Below, piece by piece: positions 1-12,264 of a DNA stretch of 64,000 nucleotides. Source of the DNA: Prosthecodimorpha staleyi (GTDB lineage Bacteria > Pseudomonadota > Alphaproteobacteria > Rhizobiales > Ancalomicrobiaceae); assembly GCF_018729455.1 (NCBI RefSeq), contig NZ_JAHHZF010000008.1, forward strand, positions 124,001 through 188,000. Direction: 5' to 3'. The translations under genes and the position numbers were made by a program. Position 1 is the stretch's first letter, and each line of letters begins with the position of its first letter. A model generated the notes under the pieces. The model was not told the DNA's origin. It searched no databases and was given only the letters and a program-made list of their open reading frames with translations.

Positions 1-2701
1 CTTCCGGTCCGCCGTCGCTCTCGGAGGCCGCGAAGGTGGCCAGCGTCTCGGCGCGCTCGGCAATGGCCGCGACCTCCTCGGCCGTCGGCTCGCCGGCCGC
101 CACCGCGGCTTCGGCCGCATCGTCCGGTGCCGACGCCGCCATCGCGACGGCCTCTGCCTCTGCCGGTGCCGTCGTTTCGGACTCCGTGCCGGTCGCCGCC
201 GTTTCGGCGATGGGGGCCGCGACCGGGCGGGTCACCTTGCGGCGTTCGAGCCGGTAGCCGAGCGACTTCAGGATCGAGGCGAAATCCTCGCCCGAGCATC
301 CGACCAGGGATGTCATCGCGACCGTCACGGCGAAGCCGCCGCCGCCCGGGACAGCGCCGTCCGGCGGCTGCACGCTCGGATCGAGCGGCTTCCAGGCGAT
401 CAGCGGCCGGACCAAGTCGGCCAACCGCTCCAGGATATCGATGCGCACGGCGCGCTCGCCGCAGACGCGGTAGCCGACCACCTTGTAGAGCGCTTTCGGG
501 ATGGTCTTGTCGACCGGGATCGAGGTCCGGCCCGACATCGACAGCTGATGCAGCCCGTTGACCACCTGGGCGTCGACATTGCCGTTCTTCAGCGCCCAGA
601 GCTGCGCGATCAGACCGCTCGGCGCGGGCTTGAGCAGCAGCGGCAGGAAGATGTGGTAGGCGCCGAAGCGCACGCCGTACTTGCGCAGCGAGGCCCGCAT
701 CGGCTGGTCCAGCGCCTTGACCTCGTCGGCAATGTGCTGGCGTTCCAGCACGCCGAGCGCCTCGATCAGCTGGAAGGCGACGCCGCGCGCCATGCCCTCC
801 AGATCGGGTGCGTCGCGCAGGTCGATCAGCGGCTTCAACAGCCCCTCGACATGGGCCTTGACCCAAAGCGCCAGGCGGGTGTCGACCTTCTCGCGCGCCG
901 GTCCGGTCAGCTGGTCGTCGGCCAGCACGATGACGGCCGGCGTCAGGGCGTTCTGCCCGACGGAGAGCTTGGCGATGGCCTGGCCGAGCCAGCGGATGGT
1001 GCCGTCGGAGGCGAGGGCGAACTCGCCGTTCGGCGCCTTCGACAGTTTCTCCGCCCGCGTCTCGATCTCGCTGGCGAGCGACTTGGCCGCGGCATTGCGC
1101 ACGGCCTTGGCGTCCGTACCCTCCGCGGTCTGATCCGGCGCAAACCGGAAGCCGTCCAGGTGTCCGACACGATGGCCTTCGACGAGGACGTCCCCTTCGG
1201 CCGTGATTTCCGCTTCGAGCATGGCGTTCTCTCTCAGACGTCTCATGAGTACCGACGTCCTGCGATCCACGAAACGCTGTGTGAGGCGATCGTGCAAGGC
1301 ATCGGACAGCCGATCTTCGACGGCGCGGGTCGTTTCGCGCCAATATGTGGGATCCATGACCCAGTCGGGCCGGTTTGCAATGAAGGTCCAGGTCCGGATG
1401 TGTGCGATCCGGTTGGAAATCGTATCGATGTCGCCTTCCGTCTTGTCGGCCTCGGATACCGCGCGCGCAAACCAGTCGTCCGGAATGCGCCCGCGGCGGA
1501 CGAGATAATCATAGACGGTGGTGACCAGTTCGGCATGGTTGGCCGGCGCGATCTTGCGGTAGTCCGGCAGCGCGCAGACTTCCCAGAGCAGGCGCACCCG
1601 GTCGGGCTTGTCGGCGAGCGACGTGATCAGGTCGTCGCGGGCGGCGAAGTCGAGCGCCGTGTAGTCGTCCGCCGGTGGCGCGCGGGTCAGGCCCTCTTCG
1701 CGCGGCACCTCGTCGAGGGCGGCGCGCAGCGCGCGGATCGAGGCGAAGTCCAGGTGCGAATTGCGCCACTGGATGGTCTTCAGGGGCGCGAACTGGTGGC
1801 TTTCGAGGGCCTGGACCAGTTCGTCGTCGAAATCGTCGACGCGGCCGGTGACCCCGAAGGTGCCGTCGCGCAGATGGCGGCCGGCCCGGCCGGCGATCTG
1901 GCCGAGCTCGCCGGCGGTCAGCTGACGGTACTGGTAGCCGTCGAACTTGCGGTTGCCGGCGAAGGCGATGTGGTCGACATCGAGATTGAGGCCCATGCCG
2001 ATCGCGTCGGTGGCGATCAGGGTGTCGACATCGCCGGACTGGAACAGCTCGACCTGCGCATTGCGGGTGCGCGGCGACAGGGCGCCGAGCACGACGGCCG
2101 CGCCACCGCGCTGGCGGCGGATCAGTTCGGCGATGCCGTAGACCTCGTCGGCCGAGAAGGCGACGATGGCCGACCGCGGCGGCAGGCGGGTGATCTTCTT
2201 GGAGCCCGAATAGGTCAGCAGCGACATGCGCGGCCGGGTGACCACGTTCAGGCCGGGCAGCAGCTTCTCCAGAAGGCCGCGGATCGTTGCCGCGCCGAGC
2301 AGCAGCGTCTCGCCGCGCCCGCGCAGGTTCAGGATGCGGTCGGTGAAGACATGGCCGCGCTCCAGATCGCCGGCGAGCTGGACCTCGTCGATGGCGACGA
2401 ACTGCACATCGGTCTCGCGCGGCATCGCCTCGACGGTCGAGACCCAGTACCGCGCCTTCTCCGGAACGATCTTTTCCTCGCCGGTGACCAGCGCGACCGC
2501 ATCGGCCCCGGCGCGGGCGACCAGCTTGCCATAGACCTCGCGGGCCAGGAGGCGCAGCGGCAGGCCGATCAGCCCGCTTTCATGGGCGAGCATCCGTTCG
2601 ATGGCCAGATGGGTCTTGCCGGTATTGGTCGGGCCGAGCACGGCCGTTACGGTCTTGGCCCGGATGGTCGGCGGCAGGGGGCCGCGTACCGCATGAGTCA
2701 T
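1..2701 (-). CDS. MgpS/SUV3-like ATP-dependent RNA helicase, C-terminal end outside the window
   Basis: Reading leftward from an ATG at 2701 the frame stays open to the window edge, giving at least 900 residues. The N-terminus carries a Walker A motif, GPTNTGKTH, at about residues 23-31. It is followed by a DEVQ box (AIDEVQLAGD), as in SUV3/mitochondrial-type DExH helicases, and by the helicase C motif QIAGRAGRHLRDG. The last visible part is rich in Ala and Glu. Known homologues in Rhizobiales are annotated helicase-related protein or MgpS and run past 1000 residues, so only the tail is missing. In related genomes an S4-domain RNA-binding protein, a ferredoxin and CarD usually follow; that would lie beyond the left edge (inference). 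RNA unwinding or remodelling is the likely role. The gene is preceded by an exceptionally long non-coding region. Confidence 0.88.
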   Translation of the reverse strand, partial: MTHAVRGPLPPTIRAKTVTAVLGPTNTGKTHLAIERMLAHESGLIGLPLRLLAREVYGKLVARAGADAVALVTGEEKIVPEKARYWVSTVEAMPRETDVQFVAIDEVQLAGDLERGHVFTDRILNLRGRGETLLLGAATIRGLLEKLLPGLNVVTRPRMSLLTYSGSKKITRLPPRSAIVAFSADEVYGIAELIRRQRGGAAVVLGALSPRTRNAQVELFQSGDVDTLIATDAIGMGLNLDVDHIAFAGNRKFDGYQYRQLTAGELGQIAGRAGRHLRDGTFGVTGRVDDFDDELVQALESHQFAPLKTIQWRNSHLDFASIRALRAALDEVPREEGLTRAPPADDYTALDFAARDDLITSLADKPDRVRLLWEVCALPDYRKIAPANHAELVTTVYDYLVRRGRIPDDWFARAVSEADKTEGDIDTISNRIAHIRTWTFIANRPDWVMDPTYWRETTRAVEDRLSDALHDRLTQRFVDRRTSVLMRRLRENAMLEAEITAEGDVLVEGHRVGHLDGFRFAPDQTAEGTDAKAVRNAAAKSLASEIETRAEKLSKAPNGEFALASDGTIRWLGQAIAKLSVGQNALTPAVIVLADDQLTGPAREKVDTRLALWVKAHVEGLLKPLIDLRDAPDLEGMARGVAFQLIEALGVLERQHIADEVKALDQPMRASLRKYGVRFGAYHIFLPLLLKPAPSGLIAQLWALKNGNVDAQVVNGLHQLSMSGRTSIPVDKTIPKALYKVVGYRVCGERAVRIDILERLADLVRPLIAWKPLDPSVQPPDGAVPGGGGFAVTVAMTSLVGCSGEDFASILKSLGYRLERRKVTRPVAAPIAETAATGTESETTAPAEAEAVAMAASAPDDAAEAAVAAGEPTAEEVAAIAERAETLATFAASESDGGPE

Positions 2702-4365
2702 CGGCCGGCTCCGCGAAGGTTCGGACCGGTCGGCCTGCAGGCGGGTCGACCGGTCCGGGCGGAGATCGCCCCCGGCGGAACCGGCGAAGCTGCGGCGAAG
2801 GGCACTTCCAATCGACTCATACCATCCGTGTCGCGGCAGCCGCGGCGAACCGCGAAGCCGTCGGGCAAGGTGAGGCCGCAACGCCTCGACCGCGTCTTCC
2901 ACCGTCCCCGATCGGCCGGCGGTCGGGCGGTCAACGCCCTATCCTCGTTGTCGCGGCCGGGCATTCCCGATCGCGTCCGGCGTCCCCGGCTTCGCCTGGA
3001 AGCCCGGACCTGCCCCGGTCGGCCAAAGCCGCGCCGTCGCACCGGTCGGACGCTGATTTAGCACAGCGGCTCGCGGTGCGCCCGCCTTTTCGTCAGGCGC
3101 CGGTCCGCGCATGGGCGGCCATCGTTCAGGAGATCCGGCAACCGGAACGAGTCTGGAACGAAGAGTGTCCGAATCGCTGATTCAAAACGATTCAGGATTC
3201 GTTCACGCCCACATCTGGTTGACGGCTTCGCCCAGGATACGAAATCCTGATTCAGGCCAACGGGTTGGACGGGAGGCCCGGCGACCCGTCAAGACCTCGG
3301 TGCCGGATTGGAGCGCAGCCCTGCAGATGCTCAGTCATGCAATTGATGATTGTAAAGGCCGGCTGTCTTCAGAATTGCCCGAAACCTGAACATGCAGGGC
3401 ACGAATCGCTATTCGGCTGAAATTCCGTCTTCGTTCACAACCCGATATGGGGAAAGACCGGCGCCGGACCACAAAATCCGGCGAGGCCCGAGCCGATCAG
3501 GCGCTGCCATCGCGGCGGCGCATTAACACCTGCGTTCCGGAACGGGATCGCCGACCGGCTACGGGTGTGCCCGGAGGGCGGCGCAGGCCGGCGTTCACTT
3601 TCGGACCGGAGCCGGAACATGACCGGCACGAATCGGCGCTTGGGGCATTTTCGGCCTTTGTTCGCACGATATCTGGGCCCCGACAGGGGAGGCGGCCCCA
3701 TATGCGCGAGCCGGTTCGGGCGGCAGACCCGACGACCGCAGATCGCCGTTTACCGATGCGGCCCGGATCGGGACGGCATGCTTACGGGCGGTCCCCGTGT
3801 CGCCCCATGCGCCGTCGGGATCGCGGCTGCGGCAGTCGCGGCCCGGCTGTCCCTGCCGCGTTCACGATCGGATCGGAGCCGGAACAAGGTGGGCACGAAT
3901 CATCGCTTTCGACGTGTTGCTTCAACGTTCGCCCGATATTTGGGGCTCCGCTCCGACAGCGACACAAGATGGCAGGCACGGCCCGGCCCGCGGGCCGGAT
4001 GGCGGATGCCAGCCGTTTACCGATGCGGCCCGAAGCGGGACGACGGTGCGTCGTCACCCGGCAGCGCCGGTTCCGTGCGGCCAACTTCGCCGTGCCGCGT
4101 CCCGGCCCGCCCGATGGCGCCGCGCCGCGGCACCCGATCCGGCCCCGGCGTTAACGGCCCGTCGAAACCGCGAACACGCCGGGCACGAATCGGTGCCGGC
4201 CCGATCTTCGCGCTTCGTTCTCGCCAGGGCTGGGGCTGTGCAGCCGGCGGGGTACCCCATCTGGATCGGACCGGCCGTCCGGCAGCCGGCCGATACCCTT
4301 GCGGATCAACACCTTCGTGCCGGAACGGGACGCGGGTTGCCGGCAGGGCCCGTCATGCGACCAAC
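2702..4365. other. 1.66-kb intergenic region without a supportable gene
   Basis: No open frame here has a convincing start, ribosome binding site or recognisable protein. The longest frames (rightward from 3447 and 3565) are Arg/Pro/Gly-rich, typical of random frames in GC-rich DNA. The first part (2702-3100) shows nothing I can name. From about 3150 to 4331 it holds a five-unit diverged tandem repeat, described separately, and it ends at a terminator serving the gene on its right. The helicase gene's promoter must lie in here, but I cannot pinpoint it. Confidence 0.7.
3150..4331. repeat. Five-unit diverged tandem repeat with two conserved blocks at fixed spacing
   Basis: Five units begin with a block containing GAATC at 3171, 3403, 3630, 3897 and 4187. 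Four of the five have GGCACGAATC preceded by a GAACA-type sequence, and about 30 bases further on all carry a TTCGTTC-like string. A second block follows at a constant 118-119 bases: at 3289 (TCAAGACCTCGGTGCCGGA), 3522 (TTAACACCTGCGTTCCGGA), 3749 and 4016 (both TTTACCGATGCGGCCCG) and 4305 (TCAACACCTTCGTGCCGGA). Distances between units grow from 227 to 290 bases because the sequence after block 2 varies. The constant inner spacing argues that each unit is a real inherited module and not chance similarity. Function is unknown; diverged copies of a small RNA gene or a protein-binding element are possible. Confidence 0.75.
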
Positions 4366-4393
4366 AAAAAAGGGCGCCCCGAAGGACGCCCCG
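4366..4393 (-). terminator. Rho-independent terminator of the first DUF3108 gene
   Basis: On the minus strand a GC hairpin (GGGGCGTCC, loop TTC, GGGGCGCCC) is followed directly by six T residues. It lies 22 bases beyond the DUF3108 stop codon and points the same way, so it very probably ends that transcript and separates it from the repeat region. Confidence 0.85.
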
Positions 4394-4415
4394 GCAATCG
4401 ACGGGCCGGTCTCGG

Positions 4416-5249
4416 TCAGCGCGCGGCGTGGCTGCCGGCGATCACCTGGAAACGGTCGGCCTGCACGACCAGCAGGCCGCTCATGGTTTCGACCGCGATG
4501 CGCACCGGCACCATCAGGCCGCTGTCGCCGACCGGTGCGAGTGCCATTTCGAGGTTGCGGTTCTCGGCCATGAACCGGGTTCCGGCGCGATCCGGCTTGT
4601 GGCCGGAGACGGGGATCCAGCGCGCCGCGCAGACCACGGCCGGACCGCTATAGCCAGGCTTGGTGACGGTTTCCGTGCGCTTGTAGCTGAGCCGCACGTC
4701 ATAGCGGGTCCAGCCGTCATAGATCGGCAGGGTCCGCCCGCAGACCTCCGGCCCCGCCGCACCGTCGCGCCGGGCGATCGGGATCAGGATCGCGCTCAAC
4801 GGGTCGAGCACGTCGCGGCGATGGGCGGCGGTGACCGGGATCCGCTCGTCGTCGTCCTTCAGCGGCGGTTCGACATCGAGGTCGCGGACCGACCCGGCGG
4901 CAAGCCCCATCGCGACATGGTGGTCCTTCTTGTCGCCGGAGCCTTCGAGCAGATAGCTCGCCGGAACCGGACGGTCGGGGCGCAGCGTGCCGGTCGATTT
5001 GGCCTCGCCGCGGGCACCGGACATGACCTTGCCGACGCCGGCGGTGCGGTATCCGACCCGGGCCGTATAGGCATCCTTTTCGACCTTGACGGCCAGATTG
5101 CCCTTGGCGAGGGCGAAGCCGCCCAGCGTGATGTCGTAGCTTGCCGCCACCTCCCCGTCGGCCGCGAAGGCCGGTACGGACGGGATCGCGGAGGAGACGA
5201 GCACGGCGTAAAGCAGGACCGCACGGGTGGACTTGACGGACGACTGCAC
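4416..5249 (-). CDS. DUF3108 domain-containing exported protein (first paralog)
   Basis: 277 residues. The start is a GTG with GGGAG six bases upstream. A hydrophobic stretch at about residues 9-28 ending in VPAFAADGE is a Sec-type signal peptide, so the protein is expected in the periplasm or envelope. The mature part opens with YDITLGGFALAKGNL and later has PVTAAHRRDVLDPLSA and GYSGPAVVCAARW. These strings recur almost unchanged in the second DUF3108 protein at 6939-7883, so the two are paralogs on either side of rpmB. DUF3108 has no established biochemical function. A clear terminator follows the gene, and it appears to be transcribed alone. Confidence 0.85.
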   Translation of the reverse strand: MQSSVKSTRAVLLYAVLVSSAIPSVPAFAADGEVAASYDITLGGFALAKGNLAVKVEKDAYTARVGYRTAGVGKVMSGARGEAKSTGTLRPDRPVPASYLLEGSGDKKDHHVAMGLAAGSVRDLDVEPPLKDDDERIPVTAAHRRDVLDPLSAILIPIARRDGAAGPEVCGRTLPIYDGWTRYDVRLSYKRTETVTKPGYSGPAVVCAARWIPVSGHKPDRAGTRFMAENRNLEMALAPVGDSGLMVPVRIAVETMSGLLVVQADRFQVIAGSHAAR

Positions 5250-6938: not shown

Positions 6939-7883
6939 TCAGCGGTTGTCGTTGTTGCGCAGCAGAGGCGCTCCGGAGGCGACGGCTTCCGGCGCGGCGG
7001 CGGCAGTCTCGCCCTGGCTGCCGGTGCTCCCCAGCCGCGTGCCCTTGACCTCGAAACGCGAGGCACTGACCACCAGCAGGCCGGCCGGCGTGCCGATGTT
7101 GACCCGGTAGGGCAGCATCACGCCGGTCGTTCCGACCGGCACGAAGGTGATCGAAAACTCGATATTGCGCTCGTATTTTTCCTGCTCGGGCGTCAGCGGG
7201 CGGAAGCCGGCGATCGGGCGATAGTTCACCGCGCAGATGATCGCCGGACCCGAATAGGATCCCGGCTGGCCCTGGATATCCGTCTTGGCACCATAGACGA
7301 GCCTGAGATCGTACCGCACGCGGCCGTCGAAGACCCGGAGGGTGCGGTTGCAGACCTTCGGCGTCAGCACGTCCTTGGGGTTGCCCATGGTGACCACGAA
7401 GGCCGCCAGCGGATCGATCACGCCCTGCTTGTGGGCCGCCGTCACAGGCATCCGCGCGTCGGGATTGGACGAACGCAATTCCGTCGCCCGGACCGACGCC
7501 ACCGAGCCGCCCGAGAAGGTCATGTTGACCTCGTTGGCGATCGGCCCGCCGTTGATGGCCATCGAATAGGAGCGAGACGAGGGGCTGCCGGGGATCGCGC
7601 GTCCCGAGGCGCTGGCCTCGGCCGAGCGATTGGCGATCAGCGCCGCGAAGCCGCTGACCTGGGCACCGAGCGCCGCGCGGTACTCGCCGGAATCCCCAAG
7701 CATGAAGGTGAGGTTGCCGGACGCGATCGAGAAGCCGCCGAGCGTGGCGTAGTAGGTCGCCTCGACGCTGGCTTCGCTCGCCGCTCCTGCAGGACCGGAC
7801 GCAACGGCCGCCGCAACAGCGACCAATGCCGCGCACGCCCGGCTACGGCGCGCGCTCCCATTCCGGTGCACCGCGATCTCCAT
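6939..7883 (-). CDS. DUF3108 domain-containing exported protein (second paralog)
   Basis: 314 residues from the ATG at 7883, chosen because GGAGG lies seven bases upstream and homologues begin with a short basic tail before the signal peptide. An upstream ATG at 7934 would add only an Arg-rich tail. Residues 11-34 form a signal peptide ending at PAGAASE. The mature protein starts YYATLGGFSIASGNL and carries PVTAAHKQGVIDPLAA and YSGPAIICAVNYRPIAG, matching the paralog at 4416-5249. An insert rich in Pro, Glu and Lys (PLTPEQEKYERN) is absent from the other copy. It is probably periplasmic; the function of the family is unknown. Confidence 0.85.
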   Translation of the reverse strand: MEIAVHRNGSARRSRACAALVAVAAAVASGPAGAASEASVEATYYATLGGFSIASGNLTFMLGDSGEYRAALGAQVSGFAALIANRSAEASASGRAIPGSPSSRSYSMAINGGPIANEVNMTFSGGSVASVRATELRSSNPDARMPVTAAHKQGVIDPLAAFVVTMGNPKDVLTPKVCNRTLRVFDGRVRYDLRLVYGAKTDIQGQPGSYSGPAIICAVNYRPIAGFRPLTPEQEKYERNIEFSITFVPVGTTGVMLPYRVNIGTPAGLLVVSASRFEVKGTRLGSTGSQGETAAAAPEAVASGAPLLRNNDNR

Positions 7884-8149
7884 CCTGTACCTCCGTCGAC
7901 CTCGACCGCGCCCCCGACGGTGTCGTCCAATCATGTTGCGTTGCCGGAATCAACCGCCGGCCGAACCGCTCGGACGTTATGCCAAGATGTGTTTCCTTGG
8001 AACCGCATCTGGCGCTCATCCTGCGCGGAATTGATGCTGTGGTGGGCGCTACGCCGCCTGGCGAGACGGCGCCGAGCGGGCAGACGCCGGTAAGGGCTCC
8101 GGGCGCGGCGCATCGCCCCGTCCGGACCGCCCGGCGCCAGCCTCGAGGC

Positions 8150-12144: not shown

Positions 12145-12156
12145 TTCGCCTCCGTG

Positions 12157-12264
12157 GCCGGACAAAGAATGTCCGGCACCTTCGTCCCGTGGCCGCGCAT
12201 CAGGAATACGCGGCACCTTCGTCCCGTGGCCGAATACCGGAATATTCGGCGCCTTCGTCCTGTC
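12157..12264 (-). repeat. Three tandem stem-loops in front of cobS, with compensatory stem changes
   Basis: Read in the cobS direction, three hairpins follow each other with unit lengths of 37 and 35 bases. The stems are GCCGAATA/TATTCGGC (12229-12250), GCCGCGTA/TGCGCGGC with one G-T pair (12192-12214) and GCCGGACA/TGTCCGGC (12157-12177). The loops all begin TTC. Hairpins 1-2 and 2-3 are joined by the identical 14-base spacer CACGGGACGAAGGT, and a degraded copy of the spacer precedes the first. Stem sequences differ but stay paired, which indicates selection on structure. The last hairpin ends 12 bases before the cobS ATG, so this could be a leader RNA element or a DNA-level palindromic repeat. 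Confidence 0.85.

Follow-up and report, generated by a model that had tools for sequence, protein, structure and literature searches.

A five-unit tandem array of a conserved, putative cis-regulatory module with NrdR-like boxes upstream of a SUV3-type helicase gene in Prosthecodimorpha staleyi

The DNA analysed here, termed the window, is a stretch of 64,000 nucleotides from the Prosthecodimorpha staleyi contig NZ_JAHHZF010000008.1. At its left end lies a leftward gene that the initial annotation had called an RNA helicase gene, and Pfam identifies the product as a SUV3-type helicase (DEXQc_Suv3, E 6.3e-25; Helicase_C, E 1.1e-8), which we take to be a bacterial protein related to SUV3, the mitochondrial RNA helicase. 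A tandem array of five units occupies positions 3136 to 4331, upstream of the helicase start, and is followed by a DUF3108 gene. The features of the locus are given below, with fractions of six denoting the core letters matched in the palindromic boxes c and d.

2 to 2701, minus strand: SUV3-type helicase gene; its 3′ end runs off the window, and the array lies upstream of its start.
3136 to 3316, plus strand: unit 1, adjoining the helicase; extra GAAC-N7-GAAC 3145-3159, dyad 3156-3204, c 3209-3218 (6/6), d 3240-3249 (5/6), block 2 about 3287-3316; six GANTC in 125 bp; the upstream TTAA is absent in the P. staleyi genome.
3388 to 3548, plus strand: unit 2; dyad 3388-3436, c 3441-3450 (5/6), d 3472-3481 (5/6), block 2 about 3519-3548.
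3591 to 3775, plus strand: unit 3; GTTCAC 3593-3598, dyad 3615-3663, c 3667-3676 (6/6), d 3698-3707 (4/6), block 2 about 3746-3775.
3858 to 4042, plus strand: unit 4; GTTCAC 3860-3865, dyad 3882-3930, c 3934-3943 (6/6), d 3965-3974 (4/6), block 2 about 4013-4042.
4148 to 4331, plus strand: unit 5; GTTAAC 4150-4155, dyad 4172-4220, c 4224-4233 (4/6), d 4255-4264 (5/6), block 2 about 4302-4331.
4371 to 4392, minus strand: terminator-like hairpin with a T run, downstream of the DUF3108 gene; weak by itself.
4416 to 5249, minus strand: DUF3108 gene (Pfam PF11306, E 1e-15); its 3′ end faces the array.

The initial annotation described a five-unit tandem repeat in which two blocks are held 118-119 bases apart, and this description holds: GAATC occurs at 3171, 3403, 3630, 3897 and 4187, and block 2 follows 118-119 bases later each time. 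When the units are aligned without gaps over 134 columns, as had been proposed together with a comparison to random sequence, 24 columns are invariant. Random sets of five 134-mers reach at most 8 invariant columns when drawn from the whole window or 10 when drawn from 2700-4450, and 24 or more occur in none of 5000 sets either way. The first block had been described as centred on GAATC. Its positions are right, and the block itself is larger, consisting of a 49-bp dyad, GAAC-N10-CGAATC-N25-GTTC, followed by two palindromes 31 bp apart. Palindrome c, of the form C.A.AT.T.G, begins 52-53 bp after the dyad start, palindrome d lies 31 bp beyond c, and block 2 begins 133-134 from the dyad start. 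Block 2 also looks palindromic by eye (GTnCCG-N3-CGGGAC). An extra GAAC stands 11 bp upstream of the dyad in unit 1, and GTTMAC stands about 22 bp upstream of it in units 3-5 and is missing from units 1 and 2.

A standard sigma-70 promoter scan of the region found no site, and terminator-like sites number 2 compared with 1.7 expected from shuffles. A sigma-54 or ECF promoter reading of GGCACG...GC and GGAAC, seen by eye, was rejected on spacing, and a protein-coding reading was rejected as well, with no Pfam match in two long plus-strand frames. Elsewhere in the window, a second DUF3108 paralogue (6939-7934, minus strand) lies close to the first on the same strand, and a 37-base tandem repeat of three copies occupies 12152-12260.

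Homologous units are found in relatives, as the initial annotation had suggested looking for. A DNA search of 61 genomes, own genome included, matched 27 of them at 30 loci. Unit 1 or 2 occurs at 23 places among those loci, the helicase adjoins 22 of the 23 (own included), and these 22 helicase-side places carry one to five units. The remaining place, L031 in genome G060, has two units and no helicase match within the 1.1 kb that separates unit 1 from the end of the contig; its dyads are at 1111 and 1335 on the reverse complement. Two genome patterns, both with forced dyad letters, extend this picture. The strict one matches 21 of 61 genomes (own included), and its only four matches in the own genome are units 2-5. 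The looser one matches 88 of 121 genomes of the order (own included), with one match for the reversed control in all 121, and its five matches in the own genome all lie in the array.

The position of unit 1 is also constant. A unit-1 pattern with forced unit-1 letters, in which c and d were disregarded, found at least 120 stretches in a named genome collection. Among the matches listed, 117 of 120 loci have unit 1 in front of the same SUV3-type helicase, 54-530 bp from the estimated start of that gene and in constant orientation. The other three listed loci (L133, L180 and L184) have just 208, 15 and 410 bases of sequence on the helicase side. Most titles of the named loci give genera that presumably belong to Hyphomicrobiales, which is presumably also the order of the window, and five give no more than Alphaproteobacteria, Proteobacteria or Rhodobacterales. 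In many genomes there is only one unit, since 47 of 80 named loci, among the matches listed, show one profile match. In most loci seen in the order, the module is conserved in place before this helicase.

Beyond the order, a scan of 385 genomes of the class with a pattern of dyad plus forced c matched 15, so this strict pattern missed most genomes of other orders. Thirteen of the 14 matching genomes other than the own one were analysed (all except G287), of which 12 are from other orders, and the same helicase lies downstream of the element in 13 of 13. A Pfam Suv3 domain was confirmed in L294, from another order, and in L071, from the same order. The dyad and c therefore also stand before the helicase in some genomes of other orders. 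By eye, a divergent acyl-CoA dehydrogenase-like gene lies to the right, on the far side of the element, in L291, L293, L294, L295 and L296, which represent several other orders.

Conservation is concentrated in the motifs. Between G000 and G001, motif columns agree at 219 of 230 positions (95%) and other columns at 811 of 1020 (80%). Between G010 and G013, in which three units adjoin DUF3108 away from the helicase, the values are 115 of 138 (83%) and 269 of 552 (49%). With a motif mask drawn from the already known motif, the observed agreement is reached by none of 1249 circular mask shifts for G000/G001 and none of 689 for G010/G013; the support is weaker for the c and d letters alone, where the observed value is equalled or exceeded by 63 of the 1249 shifts and by 10 of the 689. 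In G010 the gene to the left is cysN/cysC-like, and a search with it found nothing in the G013 stretch. In a profile of 79 unit-1 loci, among the matches listed, conservation extends from TTAA (at -10 relative to the search pattern), with every letter present in 61-64 of the 79, to box d plus TGAATC (+108), and it is low from +108 to +114, the last column covered. In most copies the dyad is 49 bp long (later patterns allowed 49-50) and c lies at a fixed distance, and TTAA or GTTMAC is often present upstream of the module. The suggestion in the initial annotation that each unit is a functional module, for example paired protein-binding sites, fits these results, in that agreement is higher in motif columns than around them and spacings are fixed. 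Judged from its sequence, the array appears to be a real, conserved cis-regulatory module that is present here in five copies.

Copies are also found apart from the helicase or in reduced form. Box c is missing from the isolated copies L303, L304 and L309, and from helicase-side units in L308 (unit 1), L310 (both units) and L313 (unit 1). L303 (about 3925, plus strand) and L304 (about 3396, plus strand), from two species of one genus, each have an isolated dyad plus TTAAC that is without c and d, and no helicase match in the surrounding stretch. In genus g37 (L306, L307, L308 and L071), copies related to a later unit are scattered over the chromosome and are some 80-88% alike over about 93-125 bases; by eye, one of those in L306 is close to a phage-like gene. 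A mobile repeat was considered and rejected as the main explanation because unit 1 is fixed in place, despite the dispersed copies of genus g37. A search of positions 3100-4400 for phage or plasmid repeats gave no match in a phage collection or a plasmid collection. Copies 2-5 probably arose by duplication and kept their motifs even when separated from the helicase. The survival of units away from the helicase, in G010, G013 and the isolated copies, means that roles other than helicase control are also possible for them.

Boxes c and d resemble the paired sites of NrdR, a repressor that senses dNTPs. Box c matches all six core letters in 105 of 120 unit-1 loci, and c and d both match at least five at 30-33 bp in 106 of 120, in both cases among the matches listed. 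When the spacings after c were scanned in 73 loci, a d of at least five letters stood at 31 bp in 50 of them and at 32 bp in 16, and at any other spacing in at most five. Among 31 later units of relatives, c matches at least five letters in 24, and 16 of these also have such a d at 31 bp; shuffles give 2.6% for c and 0.01% for the pair. In the own array, c matches at least five letters in four of five units (4/6 in unit 5), the c-d spacing is 31 bp in all five, and d is weak (4/6) in units 3 and 4. Only two pairs in the window have both boxes at five or more, and both lie inside the array. Pairs with a sum of at least nine number 22, of which six fall within the array's 1.18 kb, namely one per unit at 31 bp and one at 3258. 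None of the 13 class loci, 12 of which come from other orders, has a box d of at least five letters.

Pairs of the same kind occur at the ribonucleotide reductase (RNR) loci of the order. Twenty pairs matching at least 11 of 12 letters at 31 or 32 bp were found in 17 of 30 RNR loci, compared to a mean of 0.35 and a maximum of 2 in shuffles. By spacing, 13 pairs are at 31 bp, 7 at 32 and 1 at 33, and seven further spacings gave no pair. The open reading frame could be placed in 20 of the 30 loci, and a pair of at least 10 of 12 is present in 16 of those 20. At the own RNR gene (L201, reverse strand), two NrdR-type pairs lie upstream at about 450-495 and 676-718, each with a spacing of 32 bp, and the upstream pair overlaps a TTGACC hexamer. 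An NrdR gene is present in the own genome. NrdR boxes are described as 31-32 bp apart (PMC2892513). In PMC9110341, the G-C pairs at 9/18 and 40/49 are given as conserved, and the tetramer described there would suit boxes spaced by three turns.

The c/d pair thus shares its core and spacing with the pairs at the order's own RNR loci, and its putative assignment to NrdR is well supported by pattern within the order. The array is like an NrdR operator in its C.A.AT.T.G core, in its two boxes at 31-32 bp, in the presence of an NrdR gene and in the matching pairs at RNR loci. It is unlike one in that it stands at a helicase gene rather than an nrd gene, is coupled at a fixed distance to a 49-bp dyad, has its module repeated up to five times in tandem and often has a weak d. 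Because its neighbours are a SUV3-type helicase and a DUF3108 gene, the array is not classed as an RNR operator. Moreover, NrdR cannot account for the dyad, the part that varies least, since some modules are without c and the class loci are without d.

The dyad putatively marks a second DNA-binding factor, conserved in many Alphaproteobacteria. GAAC-N7-GAAC, which we take to be the LexA (SOS) box of alphaproteobacteria, is present in unit 1 of all 22 loci scanned and also upstream of the own genome's lexA. This suggests LexA as a reader of the dyad, although GAAC-N7-GAACNAA occurs genome-wide at chance level, with three matches and three for the reversed pattern. The dyad arms of the module also step by 11 bp, like LexA half-sites, whereas the inner half-sites of the second and later units deviate (GNAC, NTTC, in profiles with GAAC, CGAATC and GTT forced) and the constant ACGAATC core is absent from the LexA motif. 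Another lead is methylation of GANTC by CcrM. GANTC sites are packed more densely in unit 1 than anywhere else in the window, and the array holds 10 of the window's 85 sites. This density means that CcrM methylation may matter, and unit 1 resembles a methylation cluster in this respect, whereas units 2-5 have one GANTC each. The biology of GANTC is treated in PMC5172544.

We consider it somewhat probable (roughly 0.58) that the array is a set of tandemly multiplied operator modules of the helicase, which would sense dNTPs through NrdR together with a second factor that binds the dyad. Under this proposal, the upstream region of the leftward SUV3-type helicase gene would contain five tandem copies of one cis-regulatory module. 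NrdR loaded with dATP and ATP would bind c and d, and this would lower transcription when dATP is plentiful. The second factor would read the dyad, with LexA-like GAAC/GTTC half-sites at 11-bp steps and GANTC methylation sites as leads to its identity. Many modules read TTYGTTC, about 17 bp, then nTTAA on the minus strand, and where TTAA is present this may form a candidate core promoter directed toward the helicase, although the promoter scan does not support it. NrdR at c-d would sit upstream of this candidate promoter. Since copies keep their motifs away from the helicase, units 2-5 may also act independently, either as extra promoters or as a reserve of NrdR sites.

The initial annotation had offered a tandem family of small RNAs as another possible identity of the units, which are indeed tandem, conserved and autonomous in some genomes. 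Each unit would then be a small-RNA gene. The window has no Rfam match at gathering thresholds, with weak sub-threshold ones near the array, and RNAalifold gives near-zero energies for 22 unit-1 sequences and 31 later units on the plus strand (-2.2 and -0.04 kcal/mol) and on the minus strand (-4.4 and -1.0 kcal/mol), so that no conserved fold is seen on either. Among 165 distinct dyads, 8 of 10 arm position pairs are at, near or below shuffle level, with pairs 6/42 and 13/35 above all 500 shuffles. Conservation also falls off after box d in the 79 unit-1 loci, among the matches listed, over columns to +114. The small-RNA reading was rejected on RNAalifold and the position-pair test, the two exceeding pairs being noted, and is regarded as very unlikely. 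DNA sites fit better because spacing is fixed and there is no conserved fold, no consistent arm covariation and no Rfam match; a fixed dyad length and a fixed distance to c are what is expected of protein sites on DNA. The initial annotation is therefore partly supported overall, its protein-binding sites being retained. Such sites need not involve NrdR. The dyad could be the functional core of regulatory or architectural sites, with c and d read by another protein that prefers C.A.AT.T.G. Several loci keep dyads that have no c, most of these dyads with TTAAC-like letters upstream, d is missing in the 13 class loci, and order-wide searches find the dyad. The equality of the c core and 31-bp spacing with the pairs at RNR loci, and the frequency of complete c boxes in unit 1 (the 105 of 120 listed matches), make this possible but rather unlikely.

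The extra units could instead titrate NrdR as a reserve, freeing RNR genes upon replication of the locus or a drop in dATP. Up to five pairs per locus and their conservation away from the helicase would suit such a role, but many genomes have a single unit (the 47 of 80 listed loci), and we regard it as highly doubtful. A chromosomal replication origin is exceedingly improbable. It would account for the GANTC cluster, the TTAA and the DnaA-box-like letters beside unit 2 in Mesorhizobium, where TTATCCAC, GAATCCACAGG or similar was seen by eye after unit 2's box c (L100, L140 and L159). However, where an exact parS match shares the contig with the element (seven genomes), it lies about 46, 111, 411, 439, 463 and 686 kb and 1.14 Mb away, and GC skew shows no switch at the element in G007 and is too weak to read in G001. 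The origin was rejected on parS distance and GC skew, the latter readable in G007 only. An exact parS match was missing in 5 of 14 genomes searched.

Literature searches found no paper on this element. One account of NrdR across Proteobacteria gives deoxyribonucleotide biosynthesis as its function (PMC5343134). A table row there reads as 186 regulons with 591 target genes, or 3.2 each, and the main text never uses the term helicase. The presence of the module at the helicase hints at an undescribed link from dNTP supply to a SUV3-type helicase. A broader proposal, which we hold as doubtful, is that the module is older than the split of some orders of the class and ties the SUV3 relative to NrdR dNTP sensing, with DNA damage and CcrM methylation as possible further links, while in some lineages an NrdR-binding array would buffer RNR control by titration. 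If the operator reading is true, a conserved operator of the NrdR type in front of an RNA-helicase gene would tie the supply of dNTPs to RNA metabolism or to the removal of R-loops.
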